Below, in pieces: positions 15,588-26,273 of a stretch of 35,899 nucleotides of DNA. Both the position numbers and the translations under genes were made by a program. Position 1 is the stretch's first letter. Each line of letters begins with the position of its first letter. Source of the DNA: a virus; the IMG/VR virus record IMGVR_UViG_3300025009_000268, positions 1 to 35,899 of that record; one strand, given 5' to 3'. The notes under the pieces are model-generated. The model did not search any database. It was not told where the DNA came from and was given only the letters and a program-made list of their open reading frames with translations.

Positions 15588-15919
15588 AACCTGAAAGCTC
15601 CGATCGTCACACTCGCAACAGCTGAGAACGTGGCCTTGATCGTCCCATCCGGCTGGTTGTAGGTGTCAGGCGGGAAAGGCCCGATGAGCTTGTCACCCGT
15701 GGTGGCAGGGATGACCACTGCCAGGTCGCCGATTGCCAGACCGTCCACAGTTCCCGGTGTCTCAATGGTCACCGTGATTGGCGACGCATCGGCATTCTTG
15801 ACCCGCAGGAACGTGCGCCCGTCATTGGGCACATAGGATCCATCCGCATTGGCCGCAGCCAGTGCCTGGCTCAACCCGGTTCGCACAATTTGTTGCACAG
15901 CTAAGGTAGTCAAACTCAT
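15584..15919 (-). CDS. Small virion-associated protein, beta-rich (head region)
   Basis: This is a 111-residue protein with GGAGG before its ATG. The sequence LRVKNADASPITVTIETPGT, followed by LAVVIPATTGDKLIGPFPPD and TIKATFSAVASVTIGAFRL, reads as a single beta sandwich, a pattern I associate with small proteins encoded in the head-connector block of many siphophages. The exact role is not known to me. A capsid-decorating or connector-associated protein is likely from its place. Confidence 0.65.
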   Translation of the reverse strand: MSLTTLAVQQIVRTGLSQALAAANADGSYVPNDGRTFLRVKNADASPITVTIETPGTVDGLAIGDLAVVIPATTGDKLIGPFPPDTYNQPDGTIKATFSAVASVTIGAFRL

Positions 15920-17884: not shown

Positions 17885-19117
17885 CTAGATCCCGGTCACC
17901 GTGCAGATACCTTTCGGGCGGTAAACCACGAACGCCACCCGCTTGGTTGCCCGGATCGCCAGCTGACCCTTGATGAAATAGTCACTGTGCGAATTCGTGA
18001 TCTGGATGCTGATCTGTTTCTTGGTGAAGACCTGCATGGCCGCATCGAACGCTGCCACGATCGCGGAATTCTCGGTCATGCTTGTGGATTGAACCACCGG
18101 CAAACCCCAGATCCGTTCCGGACCGGCTTCAGCTGGGCTGCCCCAGATGTAAATGCCGTCGACTGTGCGCAGCAAGCGTACTGCCTGCCAGTCGTTCGGG
18201 TGCATCACGATCCCGCTCGCTGCCAGCCAGGCGTTGACACGAACCAGCGTCATAGCCTTGTAGATCGCGTCGGGAACAGGATCAGCGCCCTTGGCCTGGG
18301 TCTGGATGCCAACCACGTTCAGCATACCGCGCAGGTTCGGAGCGTTTCCATCGCCGCCGATCAACTGGGTTTCTTCGCGCATCCGGATGAAATAATTCAA
18401 GCGGTTGTCGATGACCGACTGCATCATCGGTGCATCTTCCAGCGCGATCTCGGTGACCGGCAGGAAGGTGCGGATATCGCGCACTGAGCTGGATTTCTCG
18501 GTGAAAGCCAGTGTCGATTCAGGTGCATCGCTCTTTTCCGATGTTTCGGCTGCCGCGTTGGTCATGGTTGTTTCTTCCATGTACACAACTGCGTTTTGGT
18601 CTGTCTGTCCGCCGGGGATCAGGTCAACCACCATCGGTCGCTCAGCGGCAAAATCCACGATCTTGCCCATGCGCACAGCCTGGGGGGCATAACCGGTTGC
18701 GGAATCAAACACGGCTTTGCGCTCGCCAAGACCCTTGGCTTCGATCTCAGACACAGGTCCGTTGCCGGATCCTTTGACGTATTCGGCGAACGCCTTGCTT
18801 TCAACAACCTGCTGCCCGAAGGATTTCTCTTCCTCCTGATTGCCGGACAGTTTCCCGCCCTTGCCGGTTTGATTCCAGGGCATGCCTTTGATTTCTTCGC
18901 CAGCTTCGATCTCGCGGCGGTTTTTCTCGTCCATGGCAGCCAGGGATTTCAGCTCATCGACTTCCTTGCCAAGATCAGCCAGCTCAAGGTTGCGGGCTTT
19001 CAGATCGGCGGCAACAGTCGCGTCCATATCCATGTTTGGATATTTGACGAAGATCTCGTGCATTTCCTTTTGCTTTAGTTCCAGTACACCTTGCTTTTCT
19101 TGCAGTTTAGTAGGCAT
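17885..19117 (-). CDS. Major capsid protein (HK97 fold)
   Basis: This is a 410-residue protein. Residues 1-100 form a charged coiled coil (the delta/scaffold domain, with LQEKQGVLELKQKEMHEIFV), which in HK97 is removed by the protease. The capsid core has SATGYAPQAVRMGKIVDFAA, EKSSSVRDIRTFLPVTEIAL, a long spine helix around SVIDNRLNYFIRMREETQLI, and a beta-rich C-terminus with RATKRVAFVVYRPKGICTVT. The G-loop LIGGDGNAPNLRGMLNV near residue 255 is typical. It builds the icosahedral head together with the portal and protease encoded upstream. Confidence 0.95.
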   Translation of the reverse strand: MPTKLQEKQGVLELKQKEMHEIFVKYPNMDMDATVAADLKARNLELADLGKEVDELKSLAAMDEKNRREIEAGEEIKGMPWNQTGKGGKLSGNQEEEKSFGQQVVESKAFAEYVKGSGNGPVSEIEAKGLGERKAVFDSATGYAPQAVRMGKIVDFAAERPMVVDLIPGGQTDQNAVVYMEETTMTNAAAETSEKSDAPESTLAFTEKSSSVRDIRTFLPVTEIALEDAPMMQSVIDNRLNYFIRMREETQLIGGDGNAPNLRGMLNVVGIQTQAKGADPVPDAIYKAMTLVRVNAWLAASGIVMHPNDWQAVRLLRTVDGIYIWGSPAEAGPERIWGLPVVQSTSMTENSAIVAAFDAAMQVFTKKQISIQITNSHSDYFIKGQLAIRATKRVAFVVYRPKGICTVTGI

Positions 19118-19118
19118 T

Positions 19119-19916
19119 TCAGTTACCCTCTCCCACGCCGTTCTGGCGCGCTTCGAATGCTATGAATTTATTGAATTCCAATTGCGCCGCAGCCTTGGAT
19201 TCATCCCCATCAATAATGGATTCCTCCAGCGCGTCCGCTCCAGTACGGAGATCTGTTGCCAGTTTCTTGATCTCCTCAACACGTTCTTCGCTGATCTCAC
19301 GGCCGTCTTCTTTCCGCAGCCCCTTGAGTGAGCGCACGCGCTCCCCCAGCGAGTCCACAGCTTCGACCACAGCCTTAACTTGAGTTTCCAGCGGTTGACC
19401 AGATTTGATCGACAGCAAAACAGTCTTGTCGTTCATGCCGACCAAGACTGGTGACCACTCGTATAAATCCCCCTCAAATAACTTTCGAATTCCAGTGTCG
19501 TTATCGCGTTCAAATTTTTTGGTTCGGAAACCAATTGAAAATTCATCAATTGTTCCAAATTTCACATCTGAGTAGGCTTCCTTGCCTCTTTGGGTCTCAA
19601 GATTAAATTGAGTCTTGATATAAAGTCCGCCTAAAGCACTCAGGCTAATTGGCAGTAGCGGATCCCCTGGCAACAACTCTTTTGCCTCCAATGTTTTTGC
19701 AATGGGCATTGACCAATCGTGCGCCCACACACCCTTTACTTTTGGTGCGCCAGTTGATGTTTTTCTCTTCGCAAGACTTTCTTTGAAAAATCCAGGTTGA
19801 ATAACATCGTCTCCATCATCGACATTGTTGAAAACAGAGACGATCATTTCTGCAATCCCCGTTTCATCGTCAAATGACTTACCGATTACATCGCGCGTTT
19901 TTCGCTCAATTTCCAT
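19119..19916 (-). CDS. Prohead protease (HK97 family, S78)
   Basis: This is a 265-residue protein with AAGGAG before its ATG. Expected catalytic elements are present: WAHDW with His near residue 66, and DEFSIGF with Ser near 127, followed by LYEWSPV, whose acidic residue completes the triad. The C-terminal 100 residues are a charged coiled coil (VEAVDSLGERVRSLKGLRKE), seen in many of these proteases and likely used to direct it into the prohead. It matures the head by cutting the capsid N-terminal domain and itself. The gene ends one base before the capsid gene start. Confidence 0.9.
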   Translation of the reverse strand: MEIERKTRDVIGKSFDDETGIAEMIVSVFNNVDDGDDVIQPGFFKESLAKRKTSTGAPKVKGVWAHDWSMPIAKTLEAKELLPGDPLLPISLSALGGLYIKTQFNLETQRGKEAYSDVKFGTIDEFSIGFRTKKFERDNDTGIRKLFEGDLYEWSPVLVGMNDKTVLLSIKSGQPLETQVKAVVEAVDSLGERVRSLKGLRKEDGREISEERVEEIKKLATDLRTGADALEESIIDGDESKAAAQLEFNKFIAFEARQNGVGEGN

Positions 19917-19931
19917 TTGAAATCTCCTTCT

Positions 19932-22031
19932 TTAGCCCTGATCAGGCTTTACATCTTCAAAAATTGGATACGAACACCTGGTGCAGTTCGGATGCTCCAG
20001 GGGATTGGCTTCAAAAAATTCGATGGTCCATACCTGCCCGTTGGCAATCTGGCACGGTTCGTCATCGTCTTCAACGCCGTTGTCCAGGATCCCAACCAGG
20101 CTCACCCCGTTGGCTTTGTACCGCTCCGATGAAGCCGCGTTTTGAGCATTTCCCAGCTCTGTTCTGGCAACCGTTGTGGACCTGTTTTTGTAGGTCTCAT
20201 CCACGATCGCCCGGATCCCTGCCTGGGACTCGTCGCCCTTCACCAGTTGCTGGATAGACCATCCGTTCTCATTGCCGTATTTCAAAGCCTCTTGCAAAGC
20301 GCTGCGGGTTGTCGCCGTGATGTCTTTGATGTCACCGCCCGCCTTCGAGAGCATCACCGTCACCGCCGGATCGGTTAACTCAAAATCAACCGTCACACCC
20401 AAAGAAAGGTTCATCGTTTCCCAGCTCGCCTGGGCAATTGCCACAAACCACCGCTTAAGCAGTTTCCCCAGGTCCTCTTCATCCTTCGGAGTCAGCAGAT
20501 CATCAACGCCTGGTAAATCGCCCTTGGATTCTGCAATAGCTTGAAGTGACTTTCCCGCCCTGCTGACCACACGGTCAGATAAGCTCGAGAAATAAGCATC
20601 CATATCCTTGGCCATGTTCGGCCACATCGACCTGCGGATCCGCTGCAGCGCCCGGCCGTACACACTGCCTTTAGCCTTGATCTCTTTCAACTCTGTCTTT
20701 GCGAGCGGGTGCTGCGAAGCAATCCCCAACTCCTTGCCTTTTCCACTTTCAGTGGTTGCGGGGTTTGCAGTTGTAGGGGCAACCGGCGGTTGCCCTTCCT
20801 CTCCTGGTTTCTCCCAGGAGTACAACATGCTCGTCTTATAAACTTCATCCTCGGGACCCGCTTTCAACCCCACAGCTCGTTTGAAATCTGACCGCTTGAT
20901 CACACCCTTATCCACTGCATTTAGCAGCCGTGTCCACAACTCATTCACGTTCTCAGCCAGCGCCTTTACCTGGTTGAGGTCATACCGCAGCTGGTATCCA
21001 CCGCCGAATTCATCCGATAATGCCATGGTGGCTTCCGAGGAGTAAGACCGCCATAACGCCACCAGCGTGGTTTCGGTATAAGATTTCCTTGCCATGCCGT
21101 CGCCGTAATCGCTCCGCTTCAATCCCACGTATAGCCCCGCGATTGTCGCAGGTACGCCAAATGCCGCGCAGATCCGGCTCTCCGGAATGTTTTTCAAATT
21201 GGATAGATCCAGCTCCTGCATATTCATGCCCAGCTTCTGGATCGTCATTCCCGCCTGCAGGAAGGCAGGCGCGCCAGTGTTGTTGCCGCCGTACCGCTTT
21301 TTCCATCCCTTTTGCAGCCGCTTTACAACTTCCTCATTCAGCTCGTCGCCCTCAGTGAGGGTCACAGCCACTGGCGGGATGGCGTTGTTCTTGAACATCG
21401 CGTACGTGTACCGTGAGGATTCCGTATCGCTGTTTACATCCCGGCTCGCGAATTCGATCGCCCCGATGCCCTTCCACGGTTGTTCCGGATCGATCATCCA
21501 CTTCCACTGGAATACATCTTTTTTCGAGAGCGGGATTTTTCGTCCATCTCCAACATCAAATAAATAACCGGCCACCAGTCCGTCTTTACTGCTCTTACCT
21601 GGCACTATCGAGACCTGTCCGTCATGCCACGGCCATAATCGCACCACTCGCCCTGCCTGGTTGCGTTCCTTCCAGATGTACACGTTCCCGCCGCAGGAAG
21701 CGTACGTGATCACAAATTGCATGAACTCAGCTTCCCCCATGTCCTGGTTTGGCTGTCTGATCAACTTCTGCAGCGCATCCGTCGACCCTGCGGGTTGTTC
21801 CCCGTCTTTGGTTTCCTTGTACGCGATCAACTGAGGTTCCGGGAAGCTGAATGCCAGCGCTCGCACGCAGGCGGAAACCGCCGAACTGGCTTTATAACCC
21901 TGCCTGATCAGCGTCCAGAAATCCGTTTCCATCCAGCTTGTTTTGATCCAATCTTGGATGAAAGAAATAGCCTGTCCGGCTTTGATTACACTGCTGGCAG
22001 CCCAGGACTTGATTTGATCAAATAATTTCAT
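19932..22031 (-). CDS. Portal protein fused to MuF-like minor head protein
   Basis: This is a 699-residue protein whose ATG overlaps the terminase stop (ATGA). Residues 1-400 are a portal of the HK97/lambda-like family: SSAVSACVRALAFSFPEPQL, YASCGGNVYIWKERNQAGRV, NSDTESSRYTYAMFKNNAIP, and KRLQKGWKKRYGGNNTGAPA. After a Pro/Thr-rich linker, residues 450-699 match Mu F/SPP1 gp7-type minor head proteins: GIRAIVDETYKNRSTTVART, ELGNAQNAASSERYKANGVS, and EPCQIANGQVWTIE with HPNCTRCSYPIF. Portal and MuF are separate neighbouring genes in most phages. The linker (about residues 434-446, GIASQHPLAK) is encoded by a family A dispersed repeat, suggesting a fusion by repeat insertion. Confidence 0.9.
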   Translation of the reverse strand: MKLFDQIKSWAASSVIKAGQAISFIQDWIKTSWMETDFWTLIRQGYKASSAVSACVRALAFSFPEPQLIAYKETKDGEQPAGSTDALQKLIRQPNQDMGEAEFMQFVITYASCGGNVYIWKERNQAGRVVRLWPWHDGQVSIVPGKSSKDGLVAGYLFDVGDGRKIPLSKKDVFQWKWMIDPEQPWKGIGAIEFASRDVNSDTESSRYTYAMFKNNAIPPVAVTLTEGDELNEEVVKRLQKGWKKRYGGNNTGAPAFLQAGMTIQKLGMNMQELDLSNLKNIPESRICAAFGVPATIAGLYVGLKRSDYGDGMARKSYTETTLVALWRSYSSEATMALSDEFGGGYQLRYDLNQVKALAENVNELWTRLLNAVDKGVIKRSDFKRAVGLKAGPEDEVYKTSMLYSWEKPGEEGQPPVAPTTANPATTESGKGKELGIASQHPLAKTELKEIKAKGSVYGRALQRIRRSMWPNMAKDMDAYFSSLSDRVVSRAGKSLQAIAESKGDLPGVDDLLTPKDEEDLGKLLKRWFVAIAQASWETMNLSLGVTVDFELTDPAVTVMLSKAGGDIKDITATTRSALQEALKYGNENGWSIQQLVKGDESQAGIRAIVDETYKNRSTTVARTELGNAQNAASSERYKANGVSLVGILDNGVEDDDEPCQIANGQVWTIEFFEANPLEHPNCTRCSYPIFEDVKPDQG
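20694..20730 (-). repeat. Dispersed hairpin repeat, family A copy 2, inside portal-MuF gene
   Basis: TGTCTTTGCGAG at the left and GAAGCAATCCCCAAC at the right (plus strand) match the family with one change. The repeat is read in frame as GIASQHPLAKTE and lies exactly between the portal and MuF parts of the fused protein. Confidence 0.75.
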
Positions 22032-23689
22032 AGGATTTTGGACTCCAAATGTTTATCCTTGCTGTACTTCGCGATCATCAACAGACCGCCGCTCATCGTA
22101 TCCACCACGTCATCATGTTTGCCGTGCGGGAAGAACGTCAATTCGCGGATCGCGAGCCGATTCCATTCACCCTTCACCAGCCACAAATGCTTTTCCTTGC
22201 CGCGCAGGCTCACCGCTTCGGCCCGATCCTCTTTTGATTCACTCGGGGTTATTTCGAGGATCTTCATCATCGCCAGTTCCGGATCACCGCGGAATTTTTC
22301 AAAGATAAGTGTTTGAAACGCCGTACTCTCGATTCCCCAGGTCACGCCTTTATTGACCTCATCCAGCATCAACTTCTTCAGGTTCTTGAGGAATTTATTC
22401 AAAGCCTGTTCACGGTACAGATCCCGCCCGATGAAATCCGGCGGTTCCTGGCTGAGCGCAACCGGCATCACCGCGTTGAAATCGCTCCGCGTGTTCTTCC
22501 CCAGCGCCAGATCCACGTAAGCAAACCAGCGTAATTTTGGCGGTACTTGTGCCGTTGCCATGATCTGGATATCACTCTCATCGAACATCCCCCCGCTGAA
22601 CGCCCTGGGGAGCTGCTGATCAAGCGAAGAAAATACATAAGCGCTTAAGTTGGATTTCTTTTTCTCGATGTAGAGCTTCGAGTATTTCCATTCCCACAGC
22701 GCCTCGCCCGGGTTCCTCCCCAGCTGATCACCTTTTGGGAACACCAGGTGTCGGTATTCTTCCGGGAAGTCTTCCGGGTTCTCGCTTTTTATCGGGATGC
22801 ACACACCCCGCAGTAGGTTTTCCTTGAATTGCTCCATCGTCGTGGGATATTCATCCGCTTCGAGTGCCAAAGCTGGCAGGAATACGAATTTCCATTGTTC
22901 GGCGTTCGGATCATCACTGCCCATTTTCTTGAGCAGCTGCCCAACCAAGTCATCCGGATCCCATCTTGTTTGGATGATCACGATCGCGCCGCCGTGGCTC
23001 AATCGCTGGTAAGCTACCGACTCGAACCAATCCAGTACCTTTTTTTGGTGGACATCAGACCTGGCTTCTTCGATATCCTTTGTCGGATCATCGATGATCA
23101 GTAGATCCGCGCCCTTACCCGAAAGACCGCCGCCGATACCTCGGGAGACACATCCGCCCCGGTGAGGCTCAGCGATATCCCAGTCGCTCTTTGAGGCGGA
23201 GTCATCCGCCACACCGACCGGGGTATCCACCGTGGATGTCTCGCCAAATACATTCTGGTAGCGCTGTGATTGAACGTAATTTCTAACCGCGCCGGAGTGT
23301 CCATCCGAAAGAGAAGAAGCATACGAAGTGATCGCAATGCGCCTGTTCGGGTTCCGCCCCAACACCCACGCTGGGAACAGCCTGGCGCCGTCGTTGCTCT
23401 TTCCATATTGCGGGGGCATCAACACGATCAAACGCCCGTTGCCCTCTTTACCGCCTGAAGCAATGAACTTTTCTACTTCCTCAAGCTCTCTCGCCAGGCA
23501 CACATTATGCGGCGCGTCCACGTACCACGGCGCCATGTAATGCCGGAAATCAACATAACTGCGCTTGGCCAGTTCACGCCTGGCTTCTTCCACCCGCGCC
23601 ATTTCAGGGGTGATCCGCGTCTTGTCATTGCGAGTCAACTTAGTCCCTGTCATTGCGAGCGGTGTTTGCGAAGCAATCTCCACCATCAT
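22028..23689 (-). CDS. Terminase large subunit
   Basis: This is a 553-residue protein. Walker A reads MPPQYGKS near residue 90-97, Walker B ADLLIIDDP near 194-202, and a coupling motif QTRWDPDDL follows near 242. The nuclease half has YVDLALGKNTRSDFNA near 390 (first metal-binding Asp) and GKHDDVVDTMSGG near 526-538 (last acidic pair), as in RNase H-like terminases. It pumps DNA into the prohead and cuts it. The first 20 residues (VEIASQTPLAMTGTKLTRND) are encoded by two copies of the family A repeat, so the true start could be the ATG at residue 13. The first ATG overlaps the small subunit stop. Confidence 0.95.
   Translation of the reverse strand: MMVEIASQTPLAMTGTKLTRNDKTRITPEMARVEEARRELAKRSYVDFRHYMAPWYVDAPHNVCLARELEEVEKFIASGGKEGNGRLIVLMPPQYGKSNDGARLFPAWVLGRNPNRRIAITSYASSLSDGHSGAVRNYVQSQRYQNVFGETSTVDTPVGVADDSASKSDWDIAEPHRGGCVSRGIGGGLSGKGADLLIIDDPTKDIEEARSDVHQKKVLDWFESVAYQRLSHGGAIVIIQTRWDPDDLVGQLLKKMGSDDPNAEQWKFVFLPALALEADEYPTTMEQFKENLLRGVCIPIKSENPEDFPEEYRHLVFPKGDQLGRNPGEALWEWKYSKLYIEKKKSNLSAYVFSSLDQQLPRAFSGGMFDESDIQIMATAQVPPKLRWFAYVDLALGKNTRSDFNAVMPVALSQEPPDFIGRDLYREQALNKFLKNLKKLMLDEVNKGVTWGIESTAFQTLIFEKFRGDPELAMMKILEITPSESKEDRAEAVSLRGKEKHLWLVKGEWNRLAIRELTFFPHGKHDDVVDTMSGGLLMIAKYSKDKHLESKIL
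23623..23640 (-). repeat. Dispersed repeat, family A copy 3, truncated
   Basis: TGTCATTGCGAG followed by TCAACT only, the left half of the family. It lies 8 bases from a full copy, so the two are in tandem within the 5' end of the large terminase gene. Confidence 0.6.
23648..23684 (-). repeat. Dispersed hairpin repeat, family A copy 4, in terminase 5' end
   Basis: This is a full copy (TGTCATTGCGAG ... GAAGCAATCTCC on the plus strand) read as EIASQTPLAMTG at the start of the terminase large subunit. The repeat gives an in-frame alternative ATG (in GCAATGACAG). Confidence 0.75.
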
Positions 23690-24321
23690 TGGCTTGCCTC
23701 GCCTTTTTTCGCAATTGCCCGCAGCTCCTCGATGCTCAAATCACTCGGATCCACCTTTTCACGCTCCACATCCACCTTCTGATGCGGCACGTAATCGGTT
23801 GTCATCGTAAAATAGGTTTTGCGGTCCTGAGCCCCGTGATGGCTGGGATCAGCCGCACTTTTAGCCAGCGCTTCAAAAGCATCCCGCCGGTGATCCATCA
23901 GCGGCGCTGCCTGCATGAGTCCAATAGTTTCATCGATCGCCGGATTCTTGCGTCTCCAGGTGCTGATCTGCCGATCAGAAGTCAATCCCAAAATAGAGGT
24001 CGAAAGCTCTTCCTGCGTACGCGGATAGCGTCCCACTTTCGGGGAACTTGCCCAGGCAATGTATGCCGCCACCCGCCACGGCCAGCCGTAATCCAGCAGG
24101 CGGTAATATTCATCGCTCCATCCGATCACAAGGGTTGAATCTTTGACTCCCGTTTTGGACTCTCGATCAAGCCGCTCTTTGAGTGCCAGGTGCGCCGTCT
24201 CACTCCGCCGCAGCGCCTCTTCCGGAGAAATAGCAATATCGCCCTCGACCTCCTCAAGATTGAGTTCGAGTGCCAGTTGGCTCAGGTTTTCACCGGATAG
24301 CTTTTTGGGATTGATCGCCAT
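23686..24321 (-). CDS. Terminase small subunit-like protein
   Basis: This is a 211-residue protein with AAAGG before its ATG. It has an internal region SILGLTSDRQISTWRRKN at about residue 110-125 that reads as a DNA-binding helix-turn-helix, followed by helices with PLMDHRRDAFEALAKSAADP, a layout common to small terminases, which recognise the packaging site and recruit the large subunit. It lies directly before the large subunit and overlaps its start by 4 bases. Its length and the helix-turn-helix position suit this family, though the sequence itself is not close to the well-known ones. Confidence 0.75.
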   Translation of the reverse strand: MAINPKKLSGENLSQLALELNLEEVEGDIAISPEEALRRSETAHLALKERLDRESKTGVKDSTLVIGWSDEYYRLLDYGWPWRVAAYIAWASSPKVGRYPRTQEELSTSILGLTSDRQISTWRRKNPAIDETIGLMQAAPLMDHRRDAFEALAKSAADPSHHGAQDRKTYFTMTTDYVPHQKVDVEREKVDPSDLSIEELRAIAKKGEASQ

Positions 24322-24332
24322 TTCCTAACCTT

Positions 24333-24650
24333 TCAATTGGACGATTTGCGAGCTGCTCTCGCACTGACCTTGTTGAAGTTCTCGCGCACATACTGATCGT
24401 GCATGTCTTGGCCGTGCTCTATTTGCTTCAGTTGTGCGCAGATCGCATTATTCAGAGCGCTGATCGCATCGATCACAGCCTTATTCCGTCTCTCGAACGC
24501 TTCATCCCTTTTGTCCAGGGCATCCAGGAATACCTTTTGGCTTTCAGCGGATCGCTTAGACATCTCAAGCGAATACCAGATGAACACACCCACAAGTGGC
24601 ACCTGGATCAACAGTGTTACCCATGACGGAACTACGGCTGTTGGGTCCAT
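24333..24650 (-). CDS. Small membrane protein with coiled coil (holin/lysis candidate)
   Basis: This is a 105-residue protein with AGGT before its ATG. Residues 9-27 (SWVTLLIQVPLVGVFIWYS) are one transmembrane helix. The remainder is a charged coiled coil (SAESQKVFLDALDKRDEAFE and further), with a basic end. It lies directly after a second membrane protein and before the small terminase. A one-span protein with a cytoplasmic coiled coil next to a multi-span one fits an accessory holin or antiholin, but this is inferred only from topology and position. Confidence 0.6.
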   Translation of the reverse strand: MDPTAVVPSWVTLLIQVPLVGVFIWYSLEMSKRSAESQKVFLDALDKRDEAFERRNKAVIDAISALNNAICAQLKQIEHGQDMHDQYVRENFNKVSARAARKSSN

Positions 24651-24657
24651 GAGTTAC

Positions 24658-25032
24658 CTATTCAACCGGTTCAGCAGATTGCTGCTTGGTTGGTGCATTG
24701 ATTTGTTTGATGGTCGGAGCTTTTTTTACCGCGCCATCAGCACCGAACAAGTTATTCCATATTTGGGTGCTGGTCCACACACCGATGCCAATAACAAACG
24801 GTGGCCACCATTTTTCAAGAAACTCGACCACGCCAAGTGGTAAGTAGAGGACAAGCGCCTGGCTGGCAATTGGCAGTAGGACGCTGACAGCTCCTACAAT
24901 CCAGAACTTTGACTTACTCGGCAGGTTCACAAACCACGCCCAGCGTACCAACAGCACCGATATCACCACACCGATGAACACCGGGCTTCCGATCAACGTT
25001 AGAAAATCTTTGAATGTACTTGGTATTTCCAT
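24658..25032 (-). CDS. Holin-like membrane protein, first gene of late operon
   Basis: This is a 124-residue protein. The ATG at 25032 is chosen because AGGAGG precedes it by 7 bases. Upstream in-frame codons are only a translation of a dispersed repeat. Hydrophobic segments are near residues 14-30 (SPVFIGVVISVLLVRWAWF), 38-60 (FWIVGAVSVLLPIASQALVL) and 70-86 (WWPPFVIGIGVWTSTQIW). The end is a polar tail rich in Lys/Gln/Pro. Small size, three spans, and position right after the late promoter suggest a holin that lets the cytoplasmic endolysin reach the wall. Confidence 0.65.
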   Translation of the reverse strand: MEIPSTFKDFLTLIGSPVFIGVVISVLLVRWAWFVNLPSKSKFWIVGAVSVLLPIASQALVLYLPLGVVEFLEKWWPPFVIGIGVWTSTQIWNNLFGADGAVKKAPTIKQINAPTKQQSAEPVE

Positions 25033-25050
25033 TTGAATCCTCCTGTTGAC

Positions 25051-25124
25051 TGTCATTGCGAGGACGCTCTTCCGACACTTGCGCCGTGCTGCGCTCTTTG
25101 CAGTGCAGGTGAGCAATCCCCAAC
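25051..25124 (-). repeat. Dispersed hairpin repeat, family A copy 5, with insertion
   Basis: TGTCATTGCGAGGACGCTCT at the left and GAGCAATCCCCAAC at the right (plus strand). The middle is about 30 bases longer than in other copies. It lies in the leader of the holin-like gene, between the terminator and the ribosome binding site. Confidence 0.7.
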
Positions 25125-25134
25125 TGGTGGTTAA

Positions 25135-25178
25135 AACAGAAAAGCGCCCTCCTTAGGCAAAAAGCCTAAGGAAGGCGC
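25135..25178 (-). terminator. Strong intrinsic terminator at the head of the late operon
   Basis: A 15-bp stem with one mismatch (GCGCC-TCCTTAGGC paired with GCCTAAGGA-GGCGC, 25144-25178) and a 5-base loop is followed on the minus strand by TTTTCTGTTTT. It lies only about 40-75 bases after the late promoter start and before the late genes. Confidence 0.85.
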
Positions 25179-25192
25179 TCGTCTCTTCCGGT

Positions 25193-25215
25193 GGTCAGAT
25201 AAGAAACCTCCGACC
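25193..25215 (-). other. 5' leader stem-loop of the late transcript
   Basis: On the minus strand GGTCGGA and TCTGACC form a 7-bp stem (one G-T pair) with a 9-base loop, right at the 5' end of the RNA expected from the promoter at 25225-25253. Such a structure next to a promoter and before a terminator could be a site for an antiterminator protein or for direct modification of RNA polymerase, as with the HK022 put sites. This role is inferred. Confidence 0.45.
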
Positions 25216-25224
25216 TGCTCTTAT

Positions 25225-25253
25225 ATTATAGCACGTTAATTCTATGACTTCAA
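25225..25253 (-). promoter_or_regulatory. Late promoter candidate (extended -10)
   Basis: On the minus strand TTGAAG (25253-25248), a 17-base spacer, then TATAAT (25230-25225), with TGC before the -10 (extended -10). The -35 box lies in the last codons of the upstream gene. The predicted start is near 25217. It should need no activator, so control is probably at the terminator just downstream. Confidence 0.75.
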
Positions 25254-25664
25254 TCCCCAATTTTCGAGTAATTGCCGGTGTGCTTCCTTCACCTCATTCC
25301 TTTTATCCACAAGGACCGCGTCCGTTATCCCATCATAATAGTCTTTCTTCCTGCCTAATTCGTCCTTGATGAACTGATCAGCAAATAACGGATACTTCTC
25401 TTCCATTCTGCGCGCCAGTCTCTTCTGCCTGATGGACTTCAGCACCTCCCGGCTCATCTCCCTTGGGAACTCCGTGATTGCCCGTATCGAATGGCTGTAA
25501 CCATCCCCAGGCTTCCACACCTCCTCGATCTCCCTTGGGCATTGTCTGCATCCTTCCACATTTGCAGGGATGAATACTTCTACCAGCACCCGCTTTCCAT
25601 CAGGAGGATTAGTATATGGGCTGTGCCATTCCAACCGGTGCAGAAAACCCAAAACTTTTGTCAC
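25242..25664 (-). CDS. Unknown protein before the late promoter (antiterminator candidate)
   Basis: This is a 140-residue protein starting at a GTG that overlaps the previous stop (GTGA). It carries one C-x-x-C (GCRQCPRE near 38-44) and a basic helical stretch SREVLKSIRQKRLARRMEEK near residue 70-90, then a charged C-terminal half. I do not recognise it. It is the last early gene and directly precedes the late promoter and its terminator, the place where lambda-like phages encode the Q antiterminator. That position and its basic helix are the only reasons to consider this role. Confidence 0.55.
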   Translation of the reverse strand: MTKVLGFLHRLEWHSPYTNPPDGKRVLVEVFIPANVEGCRQCPREIEEVWKPGDGYSHSIRAITEFPREMSREVLKSIRQKRLARRMEEKYPLFADQFIKDELGRKKDYYDGITDAVLVDKRNEVKEAHRQLLENWGLKS

Positions 25665-25996
25665 ACCTGCACCTGCGGCTTGTGCGGGTGTTGCGAGCCT
25701 GCGCCAGATGCAGGCGCGGCAATCTCCAACTTCTTTTCAACCGGTTTATACCTCGCCATCAACCGCTCATACGCCGCCTGGTTCGGCGCCCACGTGCGCA
25801 TCTTCTCGCAGATATCACAACGGATATCGATCGCGCTCTCGATCACCGCAATCACATCCACCTGCGCCGGATCCTGCGTTTCGGTGTCAATGGCATGCCT
25901 GTACAACATCAACCGGCTCGTATGCTTTCCGGTTTGCTGCACGATCCCCAGTCCGTGCCCTTGCGAACATCGCCACACCTGAACGTTCTCAGCCAT
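25661..25996 (-). CDS. Small zinc-binding-type protein of unknown role
   Basis: This protein is about 111 residues. The ATG at 25996 is preferred, although a GTG at 26005 is possible. It has a CSQGH motif near residue 10 and CDIC near residue 61, four ligands that could hold one zinc. Between them is LMLYRHAIDTETQDPAQVDV. The C-terminus (LEIAAPASGAGSQHPHKP) is a translation of a family A repeat, so the last 20 residues have been acquired. Its function is not known. It belongs to the run of small early genes downstream of the partition genes. Confidence 0.6.
   Translation of the reverse strand: MAENVQVWRCSQGHGLGIVQQTGKHTSRLMLYRHAIDTETQDPAQVDVIAVIESAIDIRCDICEKMRTWAPNQAAYERLMARYKPVEKKLEIAAPASGAGSQHPHKPQVQV
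25688..25730 (-). repeat. Dispersed hairpin repeat, family A copy 6
   Basis: GTGTTGCGAG at the left and GCGGCAATCTCCAAC at the right (plus strand), more diverged than other copies. It encodes the C-terminal residues of the zinc-binding-type protein at 25661-25996 in frame. Confidence 0.6.
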
Positions 25997-26273
25997 TTTG
26001 GCCACTCTCTTTCTCGGTTTTCTCCTTAAGCCAAAGATAAAACCCTACCTGGCTGTCACCCAAAGGAGCGCCTTCCGCCAGGTACACCTCATAAAGCTGT
26101 TTGTTGATTTTTTTGACAACCTCCATTACTTCGGTTAAGAGAGCTTCCGCACACAGTGAAACCTTCACGATTGCACTTGTCACTTCCACGGTGATCGCGC
26201 CAAGCTTTGTGGCTAATTTCTTGATATCTTCCTCATGAACTTCCTGATTGATGTGCAGCTTACTTTCACCCAT
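25989..26273 (-). CDS. Unknown early protein, helical
   Basis: This is a 94-residue protein with AGG before its ATG, overlapping the end of the upstream gene. It is mainly helical (VHEEDIKKLATKLGAITVEV, AEALLTEVMEVVKKINKQLY). No family is recognised. The two helical halves could form a dimeric coiled coil. It is co-transcribed with unknown early genes on both sides. Confidence 0.55.
   Translation of the reverse strand: MGESKLHINQEVHEEDIKKLATKLGAITVEVTSAIVKVSLCAEALLTEVMEVVKKINKQLYEVYLAEGAPLGDSQVGFYLWLKEKTEKESGQNG

Follow-up and report, generated by a model that had tools for sequence, protein, structure and literature searches.

The window, that is, the whole analysed stretch of 35,899 nt of the virus record IMGVR_UViG_3300025009_000268, contains on its minus strand a compact unit of a promoter, a leader of about 80 nt and an intrinsic terminator, located just 5' of the late genes. 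The promoter (25225–25253), which is kept in relatives, consists of TTGAAG (25253–25248) and TATAAT (25230–25225) with a spacing of 17 nt and an extended –10 (TG). The leader begins with the hairpin P1 (25193–25215; based on fold and covariation), in which GGTCGGA (25215–25209) and TCTGACC (25199–25193) form 7 bp, and continues with the putative antiterminator hairpin P2 (25170–25189; based on covariation and loop conservation), whose arms GGAAG (25189–25185) and CTTCC (25174–25170) enclose the loop AGACGAGCGC (25184–25175). The terminator (25142–25180), recognized by sequence, fold and covariation, has a stem of 17 bp, a loop of 5 and a T-rich tail at 25141–25133. The 89-nt leader fold reaches –50.2 kcal/mol (z –7.4 in comparison with shuffles), and the short abundant RNA predicted from this leader is plausible. 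Taken singly, promoter-like matches (3 against 4.1 expected) and terminator-like matches (5 against 4.8) occur in the region in chance numbers, so that the conservation in relatives had to decide; these chance numbers are what one would expect of an ordinary early-operon terminator lying beside an unrelated promoter. This explanation is extremely improbable, since the complete unit recurs, conserved and covarying, in 47 distinct copies. The comparison with relatives suggested in the initial annotation thus established that the promoter, leader and strong terminator described there are real: promoter, hairpin and terminator are likewise kept 5' of late genes in diverged relatives.

Downstream of the leader, on the same strand, are a gene for a small membrane-type protein in holin position (24658–25032), a second small protein (24333–24650), the probable small terminase subunit, assigned by position and conservation (23686–24321), the large terminase subunit, TerL (22028–23689; PHROG 38, 8.8e-88), and, by family matches, a portal with a head-morphogenesis-like C-terminal part (19932–22031) and the prohead protease and major capsid protein (19119–19916 and 17885–19117, together spanning 17885–19916). 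The late genes expected in this place were found as regards TerL, portal, protease and capsid, but the label "holin-like" is accompanied by no family match; relatives of the small terminase subunit, sought in the genome contigs, were not found. Between the leader and the first late gene (window ~25037–25115) there is a copy of a dispersed repeat (GATTGCTTC...CTCGCAATGACAG type), which is present elsewhere too, and also in L002 and L003.

Members of the leader family were gathered by pattern scans and by the covariance models R1 and R2, and also via a protein homologue described below; after removal of duplicates, the 47 distinct copies analysed derive from viral contigs, from Anaerolineales prophages and from the phage Rctr41k (hereafter, W indicates the window's own leader, promoter and genes, and L, G and V numbers indicate other loci and genomes). 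The leader has no match in Rfam at either gathering or lax thresholds, and in the open-access literature no paper was found describing such a switch. In L002, whose TerL is 87% identical, promoter, hairpin and terminator are kept with compensating changes. W and L003 have 118 bp in common at 100% identity, while the genes differ on both sides: L003 carries a different first late gene downstream of the leader and, between a 140-aa gene that it shares with the window and the late promoter, a 153-aa MmcB-like or DNA-repair-like gene (L003:10420–10881) absent from the window. Among TerL relatives at 40–56% identity (L013, L015, L016, L017 and L019) the leader unit lies ~1.5–1.8 kb upstream of TerL.

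The leader is found in the chromosome of Longilinea arvoryzae as well (L034), and R1 and R2 identified ~17 leader-positive genomes out of 400 of the order to which Longilinea belongs, and a small number among 400 of the phylum; many low-scoring R1/R2 matches in Chloroflexota proved on visual inspection to be plain terminators lacking a P2 loop and were excluded. The L. arvoryzae prophage (L034/L078; NZ_DF967972.1, ~3.011 Mb) measures ~17.7 kb and is located between the 3' end of a tRNA-Gly(ccc) and a 45-nt repeat of that end; leader and late genes follow the integrase directly, and after the capsid gene comes an IS3-type transposase pair; neither tail nor replication genes were recognized in these ~17.7 kb. 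In five other loci (G001, G368, L108, L110 and L118) the leader is located between the integrase and the holin, lysin and terminase genes, in L123 it follows the portal, and in L105 one copy lies after TerL and another before the portal. Two leaders per phage are present in L105, L115, G368, G771, G835, G899, G1063 and G1088. The Anaerolineales prophages of G899, G771 and G835 (L152, L155, L156 and L168–L170) are related, and their paired leaders are variants, with arms GGCGG and CCGCC around the loop AAGATGAGCGC, ~5.4 kb apart.

The sequence between P1 and the terminator had been supposed to be a conserved, unpaired linker. In fact it forms the 5' arm of P2; the 3' arm of this hairpin is supplied by the 5' arm of the terminator. 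The arms differ widely among members (GACAG/CTGTC in L013, GGCGG/CCGCC in L015, CCAGG/CCTGG in L110, TCGGA/TCCGA in L167), and a clean double change separates the close relatives L104 (CGTAG/CTACG) and L117 (CGTGG/CCACG). Over 25 copies, 91.2% of the P2 cells are paired against 63.7 ± 3.5 in shuffles (0/500 as high), with 40 double changes against 16, and the true register is the best, all slid registers giving ≤68%. A separate shuffle test gave 76 of 85 pairs against 54 ± 3.6 (maximum 68 in 100,000 shuffles), and in the members found later 72 of 80 were paired against 49 ± 4.2 (0/20,000 shuffles as high); these shuffles keep the shared ancestry of sequences that are non-independent, yet the different arm pairs are many (17 and 16). 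Since R1 and R2 contain no P2 pairs, the members found with them constitute an independent test of P2. For P1 and the terminator, 93.3% of the cells are paired against 67.7 in shuffles, so that sequences vary and pairing is kept; in P1, changes on both sides occur at all 7 pairs and the loop is not conserved. P1, which had been indicated as a possible antitermination signal, is thus conserved, with covariation; conservation of sequence, however, belongs to the second hairpin, P2, which overlaps the terminator and had gone unnoticed. A pseudoknot in W joining the P1 loop (GUUUCUU) to the linker (AAGAGAC) was considered and rejected: in L002 the loop is AGTAACCTA and the pairing is not kept.

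The P2 loop has ~10 nt (9–11) and is nearly invariant, AGAYGAGCGC, with 1.3–1.95 bits per position, a conservation that is partly a bias, as the motif served as search pattern in viral contigs, while the copies found by covariance model or protein are free of exact-pattern bias. Rare variants are AGTTGAGCGC, ACATGAGCAC, AGTATTGCGC, AGATTGACGC and AGATGAGCTC. In L015 and L031, GAGCG is unpaired in the terminator and nevertheless conserved, which indicates that it is kept for its sequence. When the RNA is truncated at the end of the P2 3' arm, 44 of 49 members have a minimum-energy fold that contains P2; P2 is far less stable than the full terminator. P2 and terminator are mutually exclusive, as in a terminator/antiterminator switch, and the much greater stability of the terminator implies that the default is to stop and that whatever holds P2 permits read-through. 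We consider it very probable that the leader is a conserved RNA switch of this kind, controlling phage late genes and absent from the databases searched. In Shiga phages, leader RNAs of late promoters have been reported to act in trans, and the unit described here has its own promoter and terminator and a conserved unpaired loop, as would a stand-alone small RNA gene whose terminated ~80-nt product acts in trans through that loop, read-through being incidental. This is very unlikely, given that a trans-acting RNA needs neither the mutual exclusion of P2 and terminator nor a constant place before the late genes.

The architecture resembles that of the Q, pR' and tR' regions of lambda and phage 21 (PMC6606751, PMC7171158), in which a promoter, a short terminated leader and the late genes are likewise preceded, at a short distance, by the gene of a small phage protein. 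Q, however, binds promoter DNA and a sigma-paused polymerase (PMC6606751), whereas in the present case the competition is between the terminator and an RNA hairpin, and the phage proteins match no Q family. A Q-like DNA site in the promoter spacer was not detected (~0 bits over 38 promoters, where a lineage-specific site is still possible), nor was a –10-like sigma-pause element, the 18 bases after the –10 having no strongly conserved positions. The lambda-like late gate of the initial annotation is therefore well supported in its architecture of promoter, leader, terminator and late genes, but with neither a conserved promoter site nor a pause element it would be Q-like in outcome and not by the known mechanism of Q.

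The logic is closer to that of the RAT elements of the BglG/SacY family (PMC3369931), where a single hairpin also lies over the 5' arm of the terminator and a protein stabilizes it; the corresponding feature, a hairpin that is conserved by covariation and whose formation excludes that of an intrinsic terminator, is found here. RAT elements, unlike this leader, belong to sugar operons, and for the leader neither an Rfam match nor a related protein family was found. ANTAR elements also have two hairpins, the second over the terminator, with hexaloops carrying A1 and G4, and are accompanied by an ANTAR protein (PMC3369931). Such hexaloops are present in neither hairpin of the phage leader (P1 loops are variable and P2 loops have 9–11 nt), the ANTAR domain PF03861 is absent from nine virus records, G001 and G368, and an ANTAR protein was therefore rejected as the phage partner. 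A weak R1 match of chromosomal origin (L083:14637–14740; G111:C209) includes P1, a P2-like hairpin with arms GGAGG and CTTCT around TGATGAGCGC, and a terminator, just 3' of a gene for an ANTAR-domain response regulator and 5' of CO-dehydrogenase-type genes; it may be an ANTAR attenuator similar to the phage element or, alternatively, a relative of that element in the host.

The gene indicated in the initial annotation as occupying the position of Q (25242–25664, minus strand, 140 aa) lies outside the known Q families, as stated there, its only match being PHROG 27524, in which no function is assigned. As a Q analogue it does not hold: among leader-bearing phages it is present only in W, L002 and L003, in L003 it is separated from the promoter by another gene, and in several prophages that place is occupied by the integrase. 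Its relatives in Rhodobacter and Rhodovulum phages are located elsewhere, and the Longilinea genome contains no homologue. Of the new antitermination pair that had been proposed, then, the RNA half is conserved, but the 140-aa gene is not its general partner, and the gene just upstream (25661–26005, minus strand) is the better candidate.

This gene encodes a small zinc-ribbon protein (114 aa from GTG, or 111 aa from the ATG at 25996) with the pattern W-x-C-x2-GH/CG ... IRC-x-I-C-x3-R-x-W, a candidate trans-acting antiterminator whose family, which has no database name, was picked out by clustering the proteins of leader-bearing contigs. In a profile search the gene was found in 19 of 33 such contigs, in every case 5' of the leader and in the same orientation; where the contig extends ≥7 kb in that direction, the proportion was 16/19. 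In 359 kb of other contigs, used as a control, the sole significant match was in L102, where a leader is also present, 28 bp 3' of the gene and cut by the end of the stretch. Among 400 genomes, 17 have the protein, 18 the leader (model matches also showing the P2 motif by eye; adding three doubtful ones did not weaken the result) and 12 both, against 0.8 expected (p = 4e-15). The gene precedes the leader by 28 bp in G1093 and 47 bp in G1035, is adjacent to it also in V109 and V128, and is distant in G992 (15.9 kb) and Rctr41k (11.4 kb); in the latter phage the homologue was found first, and the leader was then located at 15617–15705, before the terminase (E = 3e-10). The association is not complete: six of the 18 leader-positive genomes, including the degenerate L. 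arvoryzae prophage, have no zinc-ribbon protein, no homologue was detected in G899 and G948 despite long flanks, and only a marginal one in G989, while in G950, G1034, G1054, G1086 and G1100 the protein is present and no leader was detected. At L207:1480–1900 (G1088:C7) lies a second gene of the zinc-ribbon type; the promoter and terminator located within ~60 bp after it have neither P1 nor the P2 loop.

AlphaFold gives a confident, beta-rich model of the protein (pLDDT 86), for which sequence and fold searches of the PDB returned nothing significant; in a viral fold library the one match was A0A1P8DJL1, which at 128 residues is as long as the Rctr41k homologue. Comparison with Q families in Pfam, PHROGs and NCBIfam gave no match, and the family libraries returned weak generic zinc-ribbon matches only (Pfam Zn_ribbon_Com, 0.011, for one member; PHROG 6417, 0.014, for two). 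The Com protein of phage Mu, likewise a small phage zinc protein, recognizes a sequence motif within the loop of an RNA hairpin and activates translation of mom (PMC6483171), but the resemblance of the zinc-ribbon family to it is weak, the profile comparison aligning 11 columns with a probability of 42%. The zinc-ribbon protein is likely to be the factor of the switch, and its gene, travelling with the leader in many Anaerolineales phages, suggests an undescribed way to turn on late genes.

In the mechanism that we propose, the strong promoter would produce the ~80-nt leader RNA ahead of the late operon, and in the emerging RNA P1 would fold first, followed by the small P2. By default, the stabler terminator would take over the 3' arm of P2, so that transcription would stop, with a short RNA as the result. 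At a late stage of infection, or following induction, the zinc-ribbon protein would bind P2 through the conserved loop; P2, once bound, would not be displaced, the terminator could not form, and the polymerase would enter the holin, terminase, portal and capsid genes. To this explanation as a whole, in which the protein holds P2 open and so switches the late genes on, we assign a probability of roughly 65%.

The same factor might instead remain with the polymerase, as N or Q do, if P1 and P2 were a nut-like site recruiting it for passage through this and later terminators; the length of the late operons and the position of the zinc-ribbon gene upstream of the late promoter, like that of Q, would suit such processive antitermination (PMC6606751, PMC4499122). 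We consider it unlikely, because a processive factor has no need of a P2 that overlaps and excludes the terminator itself, and because the whole switch is repeated downstream in several phages, the two copies being 4–9 kb apart, as fits a local switch. The action is thus quite likely to be local, and would be exerted at each leader.

The conserved loop could also bind another partner, and the trigger might be a host protein, a small molecule or an RNA, or the leader might act directly on the polymerase, the zinc-ribbon protein being a mere neighbour. In HK022, stem-loops of the put leader RNA also govern termination, and do so with no protein (PMC9378689), and a few leader-bearing prophages have no detectable zinc-ribbon gene. 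The put RNA, however, acts alone on the polymerase and in early operons, whereas the hairpin described here overlies part of the terminator and is associated with a protein. The strong co-occurrence of leader and protein and their frequent adjacency make a different trigger distinctly improbable, as does the coincidence of the weakest or missing homologues with variant P2 loops (G1035, G989 and G948), although this tracking of loop variation by homologue strength is suggestive only. The co-occurrence could also arise through a shared early module instead of direct binding, seeing that in G992 and Rctr41k many kilobases separate the zinc-ribbon gene from the leader.

Returning to the reading in which the zinc-ribbon protein opens P2, it appears rather probable that Anaerolineales phages possess a separate control of their late genes, with an attenuator RNA family of their own, repeated along the late operon and opened by their own zinc-ribbon RNA-binding antiterminators, which have no relative of known function. 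Late antiterminators known from phages, Q among them, act on the polymerase; if a late operon is governed by a terminator/antiterminator RNA switch and a dedicated protein, this long-studied problem would acquire a second kind of solution, in a host phylum about which little is known. The analysis yields a concrete candidate RNA–protein pair, which provides a handle for finding late operons and prophages of Anaerolineales and a candidate orthogonal switch for the control of read-through.
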